Assembly (NCBI RefSeq): GCF_008728965.1
Contig: NZ_VSMC01000019.1
Span: 1 to 62,472, forward strand
Length of the DNA: 62,472 bases
Origin: Heminiphilus faecis
Lineage (GTDB): Bacteria > Bacteroidota > Bacteroidia > Bacteroidales > Muribaculaceae
Direction: 5' to 3'
This document shows, in pieces, positions 32,255 through 39,138 of the stretch (position 1 is the first letter of the stretch; every line of letters begins with the position of its first letter). The notes beneath the pieces were generated by a model. It was given only the letters and a program-made list of their open reading frames with translations, did not search any database and had not been told where the DNA came from. The translations under genes were made by a program, and so were the position numbers.

Positions 32255-33487
32255 ATGAAAAAAATATTCAATATACTTATGATAGCCATCATCGCCGGCG
32301 TCGCTTTCACGGCTTGCGATGACGATGATGACAAGTGGGTCGGCGACGGTACCTCGACATTGTCGATATTGAGCCGCGAGACCTCATTTCCGGCCGCTGC
32401 TTCGCAGGGCTCTATAGTGGTCGATACTACCGATCCCGTGACAGTCACCTCATCCGATCAGGGATGGGTGACCACCGCGGTGAGCGGCAATACCATATCG
32501 GTTAGTGTTACAGAAAATACGTCACTTGACGGACGTTCTTCCACTTTGACGATAAAGGCCGGCAGCAAGACTGCCGAAATCTCGGTAATTCAGTCGGGAC
32601 TTATATTTGACATGGGCGGTGTGCTCAATATCGGCTCAGGTGACGACGCCACTACCCTTACATATCCGTTTAAGACCAACGCTCCGGTAACTGTAACTAC
32701 CGATGCCGACTGGTGTACGGCCTCAATTGTCGATGACGCGCTTGTAGTGAGCATGACCGAGAACAGCACCGGACATGTACGCCGATGCAATATATTCTAC
32801 AAAGTAGGCACTATAGAGGACCGCATACCGGTTGCGCAGTGCGACTTCGACAAGGATATAGCCGGCGAGTGGATGTTCTTCTTTACTGATGCTAATGGTG
32901 CGGATAAGGGGTATTATGTGGATATTGTAAAGGATGGTTCGAATCATTATCTTCAACTTAATGAGAAAGATTTGATACCTGTTGTTTATAATGCCGTTAC
33001 CGGTTCGATATCAATCAAGGGCGGTCAGTTTATCCGTAACTTTATTAATGGGGGTAAAACATATTATCTGCATACTATAATATGGGATACTATCGAAGGT
33101 TATCTTACATGGAGTAAATCGGCCGGCATGGCTGCCGAGCTTACGTATAGTGTGCTTAGTGACGGTACGCCGGTGTCAGTCGGCTTCTTTGAAGATGACG
33201 GTATGTGGGGTAGTTATGTATCTACCGCTATACGTCTTGAACTCTTTACTTCAAAAACGACTGTTGACAGCAGTACACGAGCTAAATTGGTTTATCTCAC
33301 GATGATAGAACCGTATCTACTTCGAATAGAACCAACGGCAGAGGCTGCTTCGGCGGCAACTCCGTTGACTATATCGGCTCCGTCACGCAATATGGCGTCT
33401 ACCTTGAATATGGGCAGGGAGCTTCAGCTCCGCAATGCGGAGAAAGTTGTGAGCGTCGACGCCACAACAGCACGAATAGTGCGTTAA
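32255..33487 (+). CDS. BACON-domain surface lipoprotein of the SusCD locus
   Basis: The 410-residue lipoprotein (lipobox AFTAC followed by an Asp-rich DDDDDK, consistent with a lipoprotein export signal for the surface) carries two BACON-like domains. Their repeating patterns are DQGWVTTAVSGNTISVSVTEN (about residues 65-110) and DADWCTASIVDDALVVSMTEN (about 145-185). The C-terminal half (about 200-400) is a beta-sandwich of unknown family (GEWMFFFTDANG onward). It is the last gene of the operon, 12 bp after the DUF4302 gene, and ends at a clear terminator. It probably helps capture substrate at the cell surface. Confidence 0.75.
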   Translation: MKKIFNILMIAIIAGVAFTACDDDDDKWVGDGTSTLSILSRETSFPAAASQGSIVVDTTDPVTVTSSDQGWVTTAVSGNTISVSVTENTSLDGRSSTLTIKAGSKTAEISVIQSGLIFDMGGVLNIGSGDDATTLTYPFKTNAPVTVTTDADWCTASIVDDALVVSMTENSTGHVRRCNIFYKVGTIEDRIPVAQCDFDKDIAGEWMFFFTDANGADKGYYVDIVKDGSNHYLQLNEKDLIPVVYNAVTGSISIKGGQFIRNFINGGKTYYLHTIIWDTIEGYLTWSKSAGMAAELTYSVLSDGTPVSVGFFEDDGMWGSYVSTAIRLELFTSKTTVDSSTRAKLVYLTMIEPYLLRIEPTAEAASAATPLTISAPSRNMASTLNMGRELQLRNAEKVVSVDATTARIVR

Positions 33488-33520
33488 TCCCGGCTACAAA
33501 AACAGCTTTATACTACAGAA

Positions 33521-33557
33521 CGGAGGGTGTACCTGTGAAGGCGCACCCTCCGGCTTT
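33521..33557 (+). terminator. Terminator of the SusCD operon
   Basis: CGGAGGGTG (33521-33529) pairs with CACCCTCCG (33544-33552), followed by GCTTTT. The loop contains CCTGTGAAGG, the same core as one hairpin of the adjacent repeat array. Confidence 0.8.
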
Positions 33558-33635
33558 TACGCACCGTCCACATACTTGTCGGTAGGTAGGCCGATACCAC
33601 GGTATCCGCCTACGACCCGCATGGCCCTCGCACTG

Positions 33636-33790
33636 TTTGCCGTGTTACCGGGACATCCGCGGAGTCCGGATGCTGTCCACATTGTCCACGCTCTGTCGTT
33701 TGCCGTGGTACCGGGACATCCGTGGAGTCCGGCTCCCGTCCACATTGTCCTCGTTCTGTATGTAGTGTTACCGGAGCATCCGCGGAGTCC
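33636..33790. repeat. Minisatellite block 1 (module A, about 2.5 units)
   Basis: Consecutive units of 60-63 bp carry the core CCGCGGAGTCCGG and the tail CCACATTGTCC. The third unit runs into module B at 33791. Units differ by a 3-bp TCG insertion after CTCTG. Confidence 0.75.
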
Positions 33791-34138
33791 GATAAGGACT
33801 CCTGCCAAATGTTAGCCGGGGACAAGCCGTCGTCTGAGTATCTGCGTCTCCGCCCCAGCGGAGCCTGTGAAGGCTCCTGCCCTGACATTAACCTTGCTTT
33901 TCCCCTATATCGCCATTCCTCAAAAAAGACTGATGTTTGGCAAGAGTCTTTGCAGACTCTAAAATGGCCGTAATCTCGATACCGGGCACTTCGTACCCGG
34001 CTAACAAACAGCAAGCGACTTTCAGTCGCCCAATCCGCTCCCACACTCTGTCGTTTGCCGTGTTACCGGGACATCCGTGGAGTCCGGCTCCCGTCCACAT
34101 TGTCCACGCTCTGTATGTAGTGTTACCGGAGCATCCGC

Positions 34139-34398
34139 GGAGTCCGATAAGGACTCCTGCCAAATGTTAGCCGGGGACAAGCCGTCGGTAGACGGCGCAG
34201 TCTCCGGTATCTGCGTCTCCGCCCCAGCGGAGCCTGTGAAGGCTCCTGCCCTGACATTAACCTTGCTTTTCCCCTATATCGCCATTCCTCAAAAAAGACT
34301 GATGTTTGGCAAGAGTCTTTGCAGACTCTAAAATGGCCGTAATCTCGATACCGGGCACTTCGTACCCGGCTAACAAATAGCAAGCGACTTTCAGTCGC
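34139..34398. repeat. Representative B+C repeat unit with six hairpins
   Basis: In order: GGAGTCC/GGACTCC (34139-34157), GCCGTC/GACGGC (34181-34196), GGAGCC/GGCTCC (34229-34246), AGAGTCT/AGACTCT (34312-34329), CCGGG/CCCGG (34351-34369) and GCGACT/AGTCGC (34384-34398). Loops are 3-9 nt. The same six recur, with small changes, in the other units. Confidence 0.85.
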
Positions 34399-34961
34399 CC
34401 AATCCGCTCCCACACTCTGTCGTTTGCCGTGGTACCGGGACATCCGTGGAGTCCGGCTCCCGTCCACATTGTCCACGCTCTGTTTGCCGTGTTACCGGAA
34501 CATCCGTGGAGTCCGGCAAGGACTCCTGCCAAATGTTAGCCGGGGACAAGCCGTCGGTAGACGGCGCAGTCTCCGGTATATGTGTCGCCGCCCCAGCGGA
34601 GCCTGTGAAGGCTCCTGCCCTGACATTAACCTTGCTTTTCCCCTGAATCGCCATTCCTCATTTGGCAAGAGTCTTTACAGACTCTAAAATGGCCGTAATC
34701 TCGATACCGGGCACTTCGTACCCGGCTAACAAACAGCAAGCGACTTTCAGTCGCCCAATCCGCTCCCACGCTCTGTCGTTTGCCGTGTTACCGGGACATC
34801 CGTGGAGTCCGATAAGGACTCCTGCCAAATGTTAGCCGGGGACAAGCCGTCGGTAGACGGTGCAGTCTCCGGTATATGTGTCGCCATCCCAGCGGAGCCT
34901 GCCAAGGCTCCTGCCCTGACATTAACCTTGCTTTTTGTTTGTGTGTTATCAAACTATTCGT

Positions 34962-34969
34962 TAAATTTG
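34962..34969 (+). promoter_or_regulatory. -7 element of the RAYT-like transposase gene
   Basis: TAAATTTG matches TAnnTTTG and ends only 3 nt before the ATG at 34973, so the transcript would start at or beside the start codon. Confidence 0.55.
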
Positions 34970-34972
34970 TCC

Positions 34973-35419
34973 ATGAGCTTCACTCAATTGAACTATCATA
35001 TTATTTTTAGTACTAAAAACCGTGTAAAGTCAATTGCACCACAGGTAGAGAGGCGTATATATACGTTACTCTATGTCCTGTCGCTTGATAAAAAAGCGGT
35101 TGTGCATCGCATCGGCGGTTACGAAGACCATGTTCACATGCTTGTCAGTTTACCTTCCGACATATCGCTATCTGAATATATTAAATATATAAAGCAAAAT
35201 TCCAGTCGGATAATCGGTGGAGAGATTTGTATCGGATGGACCGGGTGGGAAGAGGGCTATGGAGCTTTTACTTTGCGCAATTCCGATATTGATACGGTAA
35301 AAGAATACATAGTCAGACAGAAAGAACATCACCGTCATGTTCCCTTTATCGAAGAATACAGGAATTGGTTGATTGAACAAGGCATTTCCCCTGAAGAGCC
35401 CTTTTTTCCAAAAGTCTGA
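34973..35419 (+). CDS. REP-associated tyrosine transposase-like protein (Y1/IS200 family)
   Basis: The 148-residue protein read from ATG 34973 (MSFTQLNYHIIFSTKNR) is a complete Y1 HUH nuclease domain. It has the metal-binding HUH motif in GYEDHVHMLVSL (about residues 46-57), YGAFTLRNS and the catalytic Tyr in TVKEYIVRQKEHHRH (about residue 117). IS200/IS605 TnpA and RAYT proteins cut single-stranded DNA at hairpins. A longer in-frame start at 34802 is rejected because it reads through repeat module B and the promoter. No tnpB partner exists. Lying singly inside a hairpin array points to RAYT-type domestication; activity is unknown. Confidence 0.85.
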   Translation: MSFTQLNYHIIFSTKNRVKSIAPQVERRIYTLLYVLSLDKKAVVHRIGGYEDHVHMLVSLPSDISLSEYIKYIKQNSSRIIGGEICIGWTGWEEGYGAFTLRNSDIDTVKEYIVRQKEHHRHVPFIEEYRNWLIEQGISPEEPFFPKV

Positions 35420-35533
35420 TGTTTGGCAAGAGTCTTTGCAGACTCTAAAATGGCCGTAATCTTGATACCGGGCACTTCGTACCCGGCTAACAAACAGCAA
35501 GCGACTTTCAGTCGCCCAATCCGCTCCCACGCT

Positions 35534-35752
35534 CTGTCGTTTGTTGTGGTGCCGGGATATCCGCGGAGTCCGGCTCCCGTCCACATTGTCCTCGCTCTGT
35601 TTGTCGTGTTACCGGGACATCCGCGGAGTCCGGCTCCCGTCCACATTGTCCTCGCTCTGTTTGCCGTGTTACCGGAACACCCGCGGAGTCCGGATCCCGT
35701 CCACATTGTCCTCGCTCTGTTTGTTGTGTTACCGGGATATCCGCGGAGTCCG
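35534..35752. repeat. Minisatellite block at the right end (module A, 3.5-4 units)
   Basis: Near-perfect 60-bp tandem units, each containing CCGCGGAGTCCGG and CCCGTCCACATTGTCCTCGC, run from the end of module C to the start of the last module B. This is the longest and most uniform block, as expected of a recent expansion. Long reading frames through it are a by-product of the 60-bp (20-codon) period. Confidence 0.8.
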
Positions 35753-35873
35753 ACAAGGACTCCTGCCAAATGTTAGCCGGGGACAAGCCGTCGTCAGACG
35801 GCGCAGTCTCCGGTACCTGCGTCTCCGCCCCTGCGGAGCCTGTGAAGGCTCCTGCCAGCCGCATGGCTCCAAT

Positions 35874-35913
35874 AAAAAACATTCCCTGTCGCGATGATGC
35901 GCGGCAGGGAATG
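35874..35913 (-). terminator. Intrinsic terminator of carB
   Basis: On the minus strand CATTCCCTG pairs with CAGGGAATG and is followed by a T6 run. It begins 22 bp downstream of the carB stop codon and closes the right side of the repeat array. Confidence 0.85.
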
Positions 35914-35934
35914 TATATAGGTTGAGTTGGTATT

Positions 35935-38900
35935 TTATTTGTATTCTTGCCACGGGGTGATGCCGAGAGCGGTAACTGGCTTGTTGAGGAATGCCTTTAC
36001 GTAGGCTCCGGCAAGGCGCGCGTTGGTCAGCAACGGTATGTTGTGGTCAATGGCCCAGCGGCGTATGCGGTAACCGTTGGTAAGCTCGCGCTTGGTATGA
36101 TTTTTTGGAATGTTGATCACGAGGTCAACCTTGTGGCCGGCTATGATGTCGAGCACATTCTCGCCTTCTTCGTCAGGCCAGCATACGGCGTGGGCCTCGA
36201 TGCCGTTGTTGTTGAGGAACTTGGCTGTGCCTTCAGTAGCGTATATCTTGTAGCCGTGTTCGTCAAGCAGACGGCATGCGTCAAGCATGTCGACCTTGCC
36301 GCGAACGTCGCCGGAGCTGACAAGCACTCCGGTTTCGGGCACATGGTGTCCTACCGATATCATGGCGTTGAGCAGAGCTTCGTCAAAGTCTTTGCCGAGG
36401 CATCCCACTTCGCCGGTCGACGACATGTCGACTCCAAGCACCGGGTCGGCTTTGTGGAGACGGGCAAATGAGAACTGTGAAGCCTTTATGCCTATGTAGT
36501 CGATGTCAAAAGTCGAGGTGTCTACTTTCTCTACCTTCTCGCCGAGCATGATGCGGGTGGCGGTTTCGATGAAGTTCTTTTTCAGTACTTTGCTGACAAA
36601 GGGGAACGAACGTGAGGCACGCAGATTGCACTCGATGACCTTCACGTCGTTGTCTTTGGCGAGGTACTGGATGTTGAACGGGCCCGATATGTTGAGCTCG
36701 CGGGCTATCTTGGCGCTTATGCGTTTGATGCGGCGTGCTGTGGCGAGGTATATTTTCTGTGCGGGGAACACGAGAGTAGCGTCGCCGGAGTGTACGCCGG
36801 CAAATTCGATATGTTCGGAAATAGCGTACTCCACAATCTCACCGTTGCGGGCTACCGCGTCAAACTCGATCTCCTTGGCGTTCTGCAGGAATTCAGATAC
36901 GACAACCGGATACTCTTTGGACACCTTGGCAGCCTGATCGAGGAAGCGCGTCATTTGTTCGTAGTCATAACATACGTTCATGGCGGCGCCGGATAGCACA
37001 TAGCTCGGGCGTATCAGTACGGGGAAGCCTACTTCTTCGACAAACGACTCGATCTCGCTAAGCGTGGTAAGTTCTTTCCATCGGGGCTGGTCGATGCCAA
37101 GCTGGTCGAGCATGGCAGAGAACTTGTGTCGGTTTTCGGCGCGGTCGATTGACACGGGCGAGGTGCCGAGGATGGGCACGTGGCGGCGGTGCAGCTTCAT
37201 GGCGAGGTTGTTGGGTATCTGTCCGCCAACGCTCACGATGACTCCGCGGGGCGCTTCAAGGTCGATGATGTCCATGACACGTTCGAAGCTCAACTCGTCG
37301 AAATAGAGCCGGTCGCACATGTCATAGTCGGTCGACACAGTCTCAGGATTGTAGTTTATCATGATTGACTTGTAGCCGAGTTTGCGGCATGTGCTTGCTG
37401 CATTGACCGAACACCAGTCAAACTCAACCGAACTGCCTATGCGGTAAGCCCCGGATCCGAGCACTACAATATTGTTGCCGGCATTCATGTCGTAGGGTAT
37501 CGAGTTCTCGTCGGCACCGTAAGTGACATACAGGTAATTGGTGAGGTCGGGATACTCCGAAGCCACCGTGTTGATGCGCCGAACGCGTGGTGTTACTTCA
37601 AGGGCCTTGCGGTGATTGCGCACACGGAGTATCTCCGGCTCCATGTTGCCTGACGGATTTTCCACGAAGCGTGCTATCTGGAAGTCGGAGAAGCCGAGAC
37701 GTTTGGCTTCTTGCAGTACATCCTTTGGCAGGTCTTCTATCTTGTCATAGCCCTTCAGCACTCCGGAGTAGCGTACTATATTGTTGAGGCGCTCGATAAA
37801 CCAGCGGTCAATCTTGGTCAGGTCTTCGATACGTTCTACCGTGTAGCCTTTTTCAAGAGCCTGAGCAATGGCGAAGACGCGCAGATCGGTGGGGTGAGAC
37901 AGTGCTTTGTCGAGGTCATCGAAACGGATGTCGTTGTTGCCGACGAATCCGTGCATGCCCTGACCTATCATACGCAGACCTTTCTGTATTATTTCTTCAA
38001 ATGACTTGCCTATAGACATGATTTCGCCTACGGACTTCATGGATGAGCCGATTTCGCGGTCGACACCGACAAATTTGGTGAGGTCCCAGCGGGGTATCTT
38101 TACAATCATGTAGTCGACTGACGGAGCTACGTAAGCAGAGTTGGGAGTGCCCATTTCGCCTATCTGGTCAAGTGTGTATCCGAGAGCGAGTTTTGCGGCT
38201 ACAAAAGCCAGCGGATAGCCCGACGCCTTTGACGCGAGAGCTGACGAACGGCTGAGACGGGCGTTGATTTCGATGATGCGGTAGTCGTTGGTCTCGGCGT
38301 TAAATGCATACTGGATGTTGCACTCGCCCACGATGCCTATGTGACGCACGACCTTTGTGGCTATGTCCTCGAGCATCTTTATCTGCTCTTTGGTGAGTGA
38401 CACTATGGGGGCTACGACAATGGACTCGCCGGTGTGTATGCCCAGAGGGTCGAAGTTCTCCATCGGCACTACGGTGAAGCAGTGGTCGTTGGCGTCGCGG
38501 ATCACTTCAAACTCAATCTCTTTCCATCCTTTCAGCGACTCCTCGACAAGTATCTGCTTGGAGTAGGCGAGAGCGCTCTCGCAGTGTTTGGTAAATTCCT
38601 CGTCGTTAGTGCATATGCCGGAACCGAGACCGCCGAGCGCGTAGCCTGAACGTACCATCACGGGATATCCGATACGGTGGGCGACTTCTACGGCTGCATC
38701 AAGGCTTTCCACAGCCTGCGACACGGGCGTCTTTACGTCAATCTCATTGAGCTTTTTCACGAACAGGTCGCGGTCCTCTGTTATCATGATGGCCTCGACC
38801 GATGTGCCGAGCACCTTGACGTCGTATTTGTCAAGCACGCCGCTCAGGTAAAGCTCCGTACCGCAGTTGAGTGCGGTCTGTCCACCGAAAGCGAGCAATA

Positions 38901-39138
38901 TGCCGTCGGGACGCTCTTTCTTGATGACTTCTTCGACGAAGTACGGGGTGATTGGGAGGAAATACACTTTATCGGCCACGCCTTCCGAGGTCTGGATAGT
39001 GGCGATGTTGGGATTGATTAACACTGTTGAAATGCCCTCTTCGCGCAAAGCCTTGAGTGCCTGCGATCCTGAGTAGTCAAATTCGCCCGCTTGCCCTATC
39101 TTAAGAGCGCCGGAGCCGAGAAGCAATACTTTTTTCAT
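35935..39138 (-). CDS. carB: Carbamoyl-phosphate synthase large subunit
   Basis: The 1067-residue protein has the full CarB layout: two homologous halves (start [26 protein letters not shown]; second half from about residue 555, [21 protein letters not shown]), each with an ATP-grasp core ([39 protein letters not shown]). The C-terminal MGS-like regulatory domain starts at about residue 940 ([21 protein letters not shown]). It makes carbamoyl phosphate for pyrimidines and arginine together with CarA. carA is not beside it; the neighbour upstream is the divergent amtB. It has its own promoter and terminator. Confidence 0.97.
   Translation of the reverse strand: [1067 protein letters not shown]

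Follow-up and report, generated by a model that had tools for sequence, protein, structure and literature searches.

A hairpin-repeat array around an IS200-like Y1 transposase gene in Heminiphilus faecis and its likeness to REPtron systems

We analysed a 62,472-nt window from Heminiphilus faecis (Muribaculaceae; assembly GCF_008728965.1, contig NZ_VSMC01000019.1, positions 1–62,472) in which an array of direct, hairpin-rich repeats at approximately 33575–35868 holds a single transposase gene, tnpA. From the sequence comparisons given below we consider it probable that this locus is a mobile element of the form M–tnpA–M', M being a hairpin module and M' the same type of module inverted, accompanied by its own tnpA-less derivatives, and that the repeats are run by an IS200-type enzyme in a manner similar to the REPtrons and REPINs, which are based on repetitive extragenic palindromic sequences (REPs). 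With the similar layouts found in many related bacteria, it has the look of a family of small mobile repeats that has so far escaped notice.

The array contains five copies of M, four of the mirror-image M', a minisatellite (A) and the one tnpA, and is made up of three M–M' units without a gene, one M–tnpA–M' unit and a last M alone. The preliminary description of this DNA had recognised a direct-repeat array with an embedded transposase, and this is borne out by the repeat starts (33698, 34053, 34422, 34718 and 35659, with spacings of 355, 369, 296 and 941, of which the last is the one holding tnpA), by hairpin patterns and by Tandem Repeats Finder (TRF), whose only three rows across the 62-kb window are a 369-bp period and minisatellites of 60 and 63 bp. 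It had also proposed three modules repeated four to five times in one orientation with a period of about 360 bp, of which the array and period hold and the module count is refined as above, and six hairpins with loops of 3–9 nt. All six are found by pattern search in a single orientation, with H1, H2 and H3 each occurring five times and H4, H5 and H6 four times; the loops of the short hairpins are of 3–5 nt, and H2 is a compound hairpin which has decayed in unit 1. We read M as a long hairpin flanked on each side by a short one, with H1 (GGAGTCC-loop-GGACTCC) and H3 (GGAGCCT-loop-AGGCTCC) on either side of H2 (starting CCGGGGAC, its foot carrying TTAG), and M' as H4 (AGAGTCT-loop-AGACTCT), H5 (CCGGGCACTTCGTACCCGG and then CTAA) and H6 (GCGACTTTCAGTCGC). 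This mirror symmetry, the polarity of the loops discussed below and the finding that minisatellite A repeats the 5' arm of H1 are additions to the earlier account. When one unit was folded as single-stranded DNA it gave z = -6.26 with none of 200 shuffles equally stable, and the proposed stems pair in 94.1% of cells across six of the dispersed copies plus a unit from the window, falling to 21.6–43.0% when the partners are slid by 1–3 columns. Rfam gave no match at gathering scores for positions 33000–36500, and CRISPR, integron attC and group II intron were rejected on anatomy alone. The array sits between convergent genes, as had been noted before, at 32255–33487 (+) and 35935–39138 (-).

All features of the array are on the + strand and, unless stated otherwise, were placed by pattern. 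A module A minisatellite with a 63-bp period (33635–33791; TRF, arm motif TCCG[CT]GGAGTCCG) ends in the 5' arm of H1 of the first M (33784–33877; H1 33784–33802, decayed H2 33816–33852, H3 33860–33877), from which a spacer (33880–33942) leads to the first M' (33943–34029; H4 33943–33960, H5 33982–34000, H6 34015–34029). The second unit has M at 34139–34246 (H1 34139–34157, H2 34171–34207, H3 34229–34246) and M' at 34312–34398 (H4 34312–34329, H5 34351–34369, H6 34384–34398), and the third M at 34508–34615 (H1 34508–34526, H2 34540–34576, H3 34598–34615) and M' at 34668–34754 (H4 34668–34685, H5 34707–34725, H6 34740–34754). Upstream of tnpA (34973–35419; placed by profiles, structure and motif) lies M at 34804–34911 (H1 34804–34822, foot TTAG, H2 34836–34872, H3 34894–34911) and downstream M' at 35429–35515 (H4 35429–35446, H5 35468–35486 with its CTAA foot, H6 35501–35515). 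A second module A minisatellite, with 3.6 copies of 60 bp by TRF (35539–35752), precedes the fifth M, a half element without M' (35745–35852; H1 35745–35763, H2 35777–35813, H3 35835–35852).

The gene-less units are best read, on their spacers, as internal-deletion derivatives of the tnpA unit, because the H3–H4 spacers of units 1 and 2 start like the tnpA 5' flank and continue with a decayed tnpA 3' end (in unit 1, 33880–33901 fused to 33896–33933, with the deletion junction within a short common GC[AT]TTT). This tail is identical at 26 of 38 positions to 35382–35419, its best register in the gene, and none of 5000 shuffles reached 26 (maximum 20); the tail of unit 3 is identical to tnpA at 19 of 26 positions, a value given without a shuffle control. 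Among the long-flanked tnpA loci, 24 of 53 carry tandem arrays vs two of 25 window tiles, and growth in the window was probably by recombination or slippage: a unit with an internal deletion could have been duplicated in tandem, with the minisatellite growing at the outer hairpin. Minisatellites whose units copy the outermost hairpin or its arm also adjoin modules, by eye, at L012 (~1600–1970), L025 (~2050–2350) and L241 (genome G230), and the two window minisatellites likewise repeat the outermost hairpin or its arm.

The tnpA protein is of 148 aa with DHVH and YIVRQKEHH motifs, and scores 84.2 bits with Pfam Y1_Tnp and 72.5 bits with the NCBIfam IS200/IS605 TnpA model NF033573 (cut-off 55). 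The nearest solved structure in PDB by sequence is IS608 TnpA (E 4.6e-07), and the predicted structure (pLDDT 88.3) has ISDra2 and IS608 as its nearest folds, with TnpA_REP (4er8) ranking 30th. No other Y1_Tnp match occurs in the assembly of the window genome (3.05 Mb in 91 contigs), which also has no match to OrfB_IS605 (TnpB), in agreement with the initial view of a single HUH/Y1 transposase without tnpB. The label 'RAYT-type' given to it at that time has to be withdrawn: a class 2 RAYT/TnpA_REP would have the Y---NP motif where this protein has Y---Q--HH, and the NCBIfam REP-associated model NF047646 gives 25.1 bits, below its cut-off of 80. It is an IS200-like Y1 enzyme of TnpA_Y1 subclass 1.2, an assignment by motif only (Y---Q--HH, DH[IV]H, ~148 aa). 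In the passages of Quentin et al. (2018; PMC6006769) cited here, subclass 1.2 is listed without REPs and with low copy number; the statement on REPs is an observation there and not a defining trait.

Close tnpA genes are present in 91 of 197 family genomes (at least 90% complete) and in 132 of 296 genomes in a survey of the phylum, the window genome being included in both counts. For our main set of loci, 105 hidden Markov model hits were reduced to 101 full-length proteins, of which 100 have Y..Q..HH, and to 95 loci with both flanks (L032, L085, L131, L153, L160 and L103, the same gene as L033, were dropped); the distant relatives L032, which is without Y..Q..HH, and L036 were kept out of the statistics. 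It should be noted that these 95 loci are nearly all from the Muribaculaceae and are non-independent, as some are orthologues. Counting hairpins with a perfect stem of at least 6, a loop of 3–4 and a distance of no more than 300 nt from tnpA, we found 123 upstream and 130 downstream vs 13.9 and 16.5 in shuffles. The upstream loops include 70 GNA/GNNA and 10 TNC/TNNC and the downstream loops 79 TNC/TNNC and 13 GNA/GNNA, with about one of each in shuffles, and a stem 5-mer is common to both flanks at 43 of the 95 loci vs 0.05 in shuffles. By comparison amongst relatives, then, the modules around tnpA are shown to be inverted, with polar GNA/GNNA loops in the short hairpins, and homologues within the genus (46–53% identity) have, by eye, a similar mirrored layout in different letters.

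The polarity is limited to approximately 230 nt around tnpA. Within 0–130 nt there are 26 GNA to 3 upstream and 61 TNC to 4 downstream, and in the overlapping window of 100–230 nt the ratios are 39 to 2 and 35 to 3; at 200–330 nt polarity is lost (12 GNA and 10 TNC upstream, 4 TNC and 7 GNA downstream). Inside the tnpA coding sequences the density is 0.59 hairpins per kb. Over 190 modules the words seen at the foot of the long hairpin occur in excess, with TAACCC in 60 (8.7 expected), GTAACC in 40 (8.6), TTAACC in 41 (8.6) and TAGCCG in 33 (9.6). The foot tetranucleotide is NTA[AG], and the window has GTTAG at this place.

Hairpins are also in excess in three further sets. In Bacteroidota outside the family (28 of 29 loci used, one having a short flank) there are 59 upstream and 48 downstream vs 7.4 and 6.3 in shuffles. 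Relatives in genome contigs were found by exact peptide words followed by alignment, with 80 of 530 kept (a first scan of these contigs by exact peptide words had given no close tnpA relatives), and the named-locus set from these contigs (52 of 72 used; 17 were already in the first set, two had short flanks and one was not full) has 101 and 110 vs 8.8 and 10.1, with polarities of 58:11 upstream and 62:14 downstream. Seven of eight records titled as other phyla were used (L341 is not full) and have 15 and 18 hairpins vs 0.9 and 1.2, polarities of 11:0 and 12:1, and Y..Q..HH in six of the seven (L354 is without it). The clearest case amongst these, L360, a strain record of Oligosphaera ethanolica DSM 24202, has three GGA-loop hairpins upstream and TCC loops only downstream. 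We note that L287 and L289 (JAMPGZ010000001.1), titled Lachnospiraceae, coincide with contig C11 of G009, a member of the window's genus, and that this title looks wrong; because of the conflict for L287, phylum labels of metagenome-assembled genome records are provisional. Transfer RNA genes lie within a few hundred bp of the element at four loci, L013 (Leu, 274–356), L014 (Leu, 1130–1212), L152 (Ser, 1760–1848) and L046 (Pro, 1868–1943), which were picked for scanning because such proximity looked so by eye.

Copies of the modules are dispersed in the window genome, in line with the large modular REP-like system, tied to the transposase, which the preliminary description had suggested. BLAST with one unit gave 12 matches with E <= 1e-3 in nine places outside the window, and a covariance model gave 37 genome matches, both strands counted (the mirror symmetry of M and M' makes both match). 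These take in 13 places beyond the window, spread over 10 contigs, and eight of the places score at least 164 bits; six of the dispersed copies were used with one window unit to build the model and match by construction. Amongst 14 genomes of the genus the model also has matches in G005 (15), G006 (29), G007 (19) and G009 (10), and none in the other nine. A tnpA relative is present in G005 and G009, the latter having two tnpAs and, by eye, two corresponding dispersed families, as well as in G004 and G010, where the flanking modules are too divergent for the model.

The association with tnpA was also seen with a 2240-nt probe in which the 140-nt stretches before and after each of eight tnpAs were joined, and which was run on eight genomes of eight other genera and on six genomes without a close tnpA. 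All eight have matches (28, 35, 8, 80, 54, 12, 18 and 31), in each case on contigs besides the tnpA contig, and none of the six controls does. Among the matches listed, each genome fits the modules of its own tnpA only, with overhangs of no more than 11 nt into the neighbouring probe. Most of the 12 dispersed copies in G086 are six-hairpin cassettes in which a short spacer replaces tnpA, and at least three are without the left half. The expectation that modules track the transposase thus stood across genera, with G006 and G007, both incomplete, as genus members that have model matches and no tnpA found, and the further idea that copies sit at 3' ends, where they might stabilise transcripts, finds weak support in only a mild preference: 34 element sides face a 3' end and 23 a 5' end, with 17 uncalled, and the 23 gaps called on both sides include nine convergent and two divergent, counts which rest on crude open reading frame (ORF) calls, with an ORF of at least 100 aa crossing the element in 4 of 37 loci.

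A separate, REP-like repeat family is also found in the window genome. There are 54 copies (32 + 22, with up to one mismatch) of a GTAG-tagged palindrome, GTAGGGGCGCCNGTANNACGGCGCC, and none of the backwards control, although the subclass 1.2 enzyme is the only Y1 transposase found (a second could sit at a contig break). The palindromes occur in clusters and inverted pairs (e.g. C9:66377 and 66509, C23:58063–59723, C23:336239–337256 and C34:99803–101174), and one lies within approximately 200 bp of six of the eight high-scoring dispersed cassettes (C14:19136–19368, C23:58269–58519, C23:58952–59202, C33:627–860, C34:101197–101445 and C45:97664–97916). The left edge of the window array at 33580–33625 (+) resembles, by eye, the GTAG...GGCGCC repeats around dispersed cassettes and may be a degenerate copy.

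Evidence of movement comes from units of approximately 740–815 nt, comprising tnpA and both modules, which are 80–92% identical between species in unrelated surroundings (L146/L152, 777 nt, 81.7%; L147/L152, 753 nt, 83.0%; L120/L130, 815 nt, 91.7%), with homology stopping, by eye, near the outermost hairpins. The L147 insertion in G140 lies, by eye, between two convergent genes like the window array, and its flanks are contiguous, forming an empty site, in 16 of the 17 orthologous same-genus loci fetched; the 17th, in G230, has an orthologous insertion (81% identity) whose right side bears a longer minisatellite. Comparison of the flanks of the window genome's cassettes with 13 other genomes of the genus gave no empty-site junctions; the flank matches are 66–90% identical and, among the matches listed, left and right flanks were not found together.

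A mechanism consistent with these observations would have the enzyme bind M as folded single-stranded DNA, on the strand carrying the GNA loops, with the foot tetranucleotide picking the cut. GNA and GNNA loops are described as giving exceptionally stable DNA mini-hairpins (passages cited from PMC4686876), and this stability speaks for an enzyme that recognises single-stranded DNA in its folded form, which at inverted ends also predicts the flip of the loop strand between modules, where a role in RNA predicts one strand. The enzyme may then act in trans to mobilise M...M' cassettes as well as half elements and single modules, which is the kind of role proposed for TnpA_REP with REPs. A broader proposal, to which we give less than even weight, is that subclass 1.2 comprises active transposases with a single-strand system of their own, reading a DNA-fold code in which a long hairpin tagged by NTA[AG] lies between two mini-hairpins with GNA/GNNA loops. 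Such a system would move M...M' pairs and single modules in trans, with each enzyme co-diverged with its own stems, and would be widespread in the Bacteroidota and present in other phyla; in the window genome the enzyme might also spread the 54 canonical GTAG palindromes, for which there is no class 2 RAYT.

Several observations weigh against a mobile element of this kind. The genomes G006 and G007 have model matches with no tnpA found, both being incomplete (59% and 65% complete), and the dispersed cassettes of the window genome are, by eye, without a clear tnpA remnant. By our hairpin criterion 13 of the 95 loci have no hairpin at all, conforming loops are present on both sides in just 38 and on at least one in 66, and polarity is weaker in the 28 loci from outside the family (23:7 upstream and 17:9 downstream). 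No target duplication or exact cut site was resolved, the L147 site being too diverged. Seven loci of genus g14, the genus of the L147 insertion (L110, L111, L112, L117, L118, L119 and L121), lie in aligned surroundings, which suggests vertical inheritance of a fixed tnpA gene; these seven carry hairpins of a different style.

This synteny across seven g14 genomes, together with the single tnpA of the window genome and the low copy number of subclass 1.2 in the passages cited from Quentin et al. (2018; PMC6006769), would suit a domesticated and mostly vertically inherited Y1 nuclease which has ceased to transpose and serves in the upkeep or processing of host repeats, the modules having spread long ago. 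We think this unlikely, as it is opposed by the M–tnpA–M' units shared between species in unrelated flanks and by the insertion whose site is empty in sister genomes. A standard IS200/IS605 insertion sequence with deletion derivatives resembling miniature inverted-repeat transposable elements (MITEs) would account for the NF033573 score, for the ISDra2 and IS608 folds and for the array's deletion derivatives. Insertion sequences of this type transpose as single strands by way of a circular intermediate, and the hairpins recognised at IS608-type ends lie on one strand and are not inverted. The flanking hairpins here are unlike these in being both inverted and triple, and dispersed cassettes occur in 13 places vs one tnpA gene, making this explanation very improbable.

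We give still less credence to the view that the hairpins are host RNA elements, such as terminators or mRNA stabilisers, amongst which a transposase gene landed by chance. Their intergenic positions, the mild 3'-end excess and the placing of the array between convergent genes agree with it; the match between tnpA and cognate repeats in all eight genera, the flip of loop polarity between flanks, not expected of elements acting in transcripts, and the lack of an Rfam match do not. That the array is merely a product of recombination or replication slippage with the transposase uninvolved is scarcely tenable, for all its direct, near-identical units in one orientation, minisatellite A and the frequency of tandem arrays at tnpA loci, since it leaves the dispersed cassettes and cognate pairing unexplained; for the tandem amplification step by itself it could well hold.

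If the locus is a mobile M–tnpA–M' element, it provides a candidate substrate for TnpA subclass 1.2, described before, in the passages cited from PMC6006769, without REPs and properties of insertion sequences. The Bacteroidota would gain a mobile hairpin-repeat family, for which we found no assignment in the open PubMed Central literature; similarly, no paper on repeats of subclass 1.2 was found in open-licence PubMed Central. The GNA/GNNA loop rule yields a prediction that is specific in chemical terms, and the many natural pairs of enzyme and repeat, which differ in their stem letters, allow specificity and co-evolution to be tested directly.

Amongst known systems the REPtron, with its RAYT/TnpA_REP enzyme and its REPs, REPINs and bacterial interspersed mosaic elements (BIMEs), is alike in having a Y1 HUH enzyme between inverted palindromic repeats, cognate dispersed copies and a foot tetranucleotide 5' of the hairpin (passages cited from PMC2817692, PMC6006769 and PMC8266576). 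A further likeness is an asymmetry of the folded strand, with TnpA_REP cutting the REP and not its complement. The NTA[AG] foot resembles the GT[AG]G foot of REPs, which in the sources drawn on is required by TnpA_REP for cleavage. The systems differ in that the REPtron enzyme is of class 2 (Y---NP) and the one here, by motif, of subclass 1.2 (Y---Q--HH), and in the three-hairpin module on each side, the GNA/GNNA loops and the NTA[AG] foot in place of GT[AG]G. Subclass 1.2 itself (PMC6006769) matches in its length of 148, DHVH, Y---Q--HH, presence in Bacteroidetes and low copy number, and differs as published, in the passages cited, from the hairpins beyond chance which we find around most loci examined. 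TIRtrons (passages cited from PMC3733652) are alike in having long inverted flanks, with a tyrosine transposase (TIRYT) between long terminal inverted repeats (TIRs), some of which are repeated in the genome; TIRYTs differ in having motifs in common with RAYTs and in TIRs that are varied, mostly unrelated to REPs and not triple GNA hairpins. Subclass 2.6 TnpA_Y1 (passages cited from PMC6006769) is also from Bacteroidetes and has atypical flanking secondary structures with copies elsewhere, and differs in being a class 2 protein with a Y---NP-type motif. IS608 and ISDra2 share the fold, the catalytic residues and the Q of the Y---Q motif, and IS200/IS605-type ends are described, in the sources drawn on, as having subterminal hairpins and guide sequences; the locus here differs in its inverted triple modules, its many tnpA-less dispersed copies and the lack of a TnpB in the assembly. 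We have not filed it as a RAYT because the enzyme fails the class 2 RAYT tests, though it would seem to work like a REPtron with REPINs.

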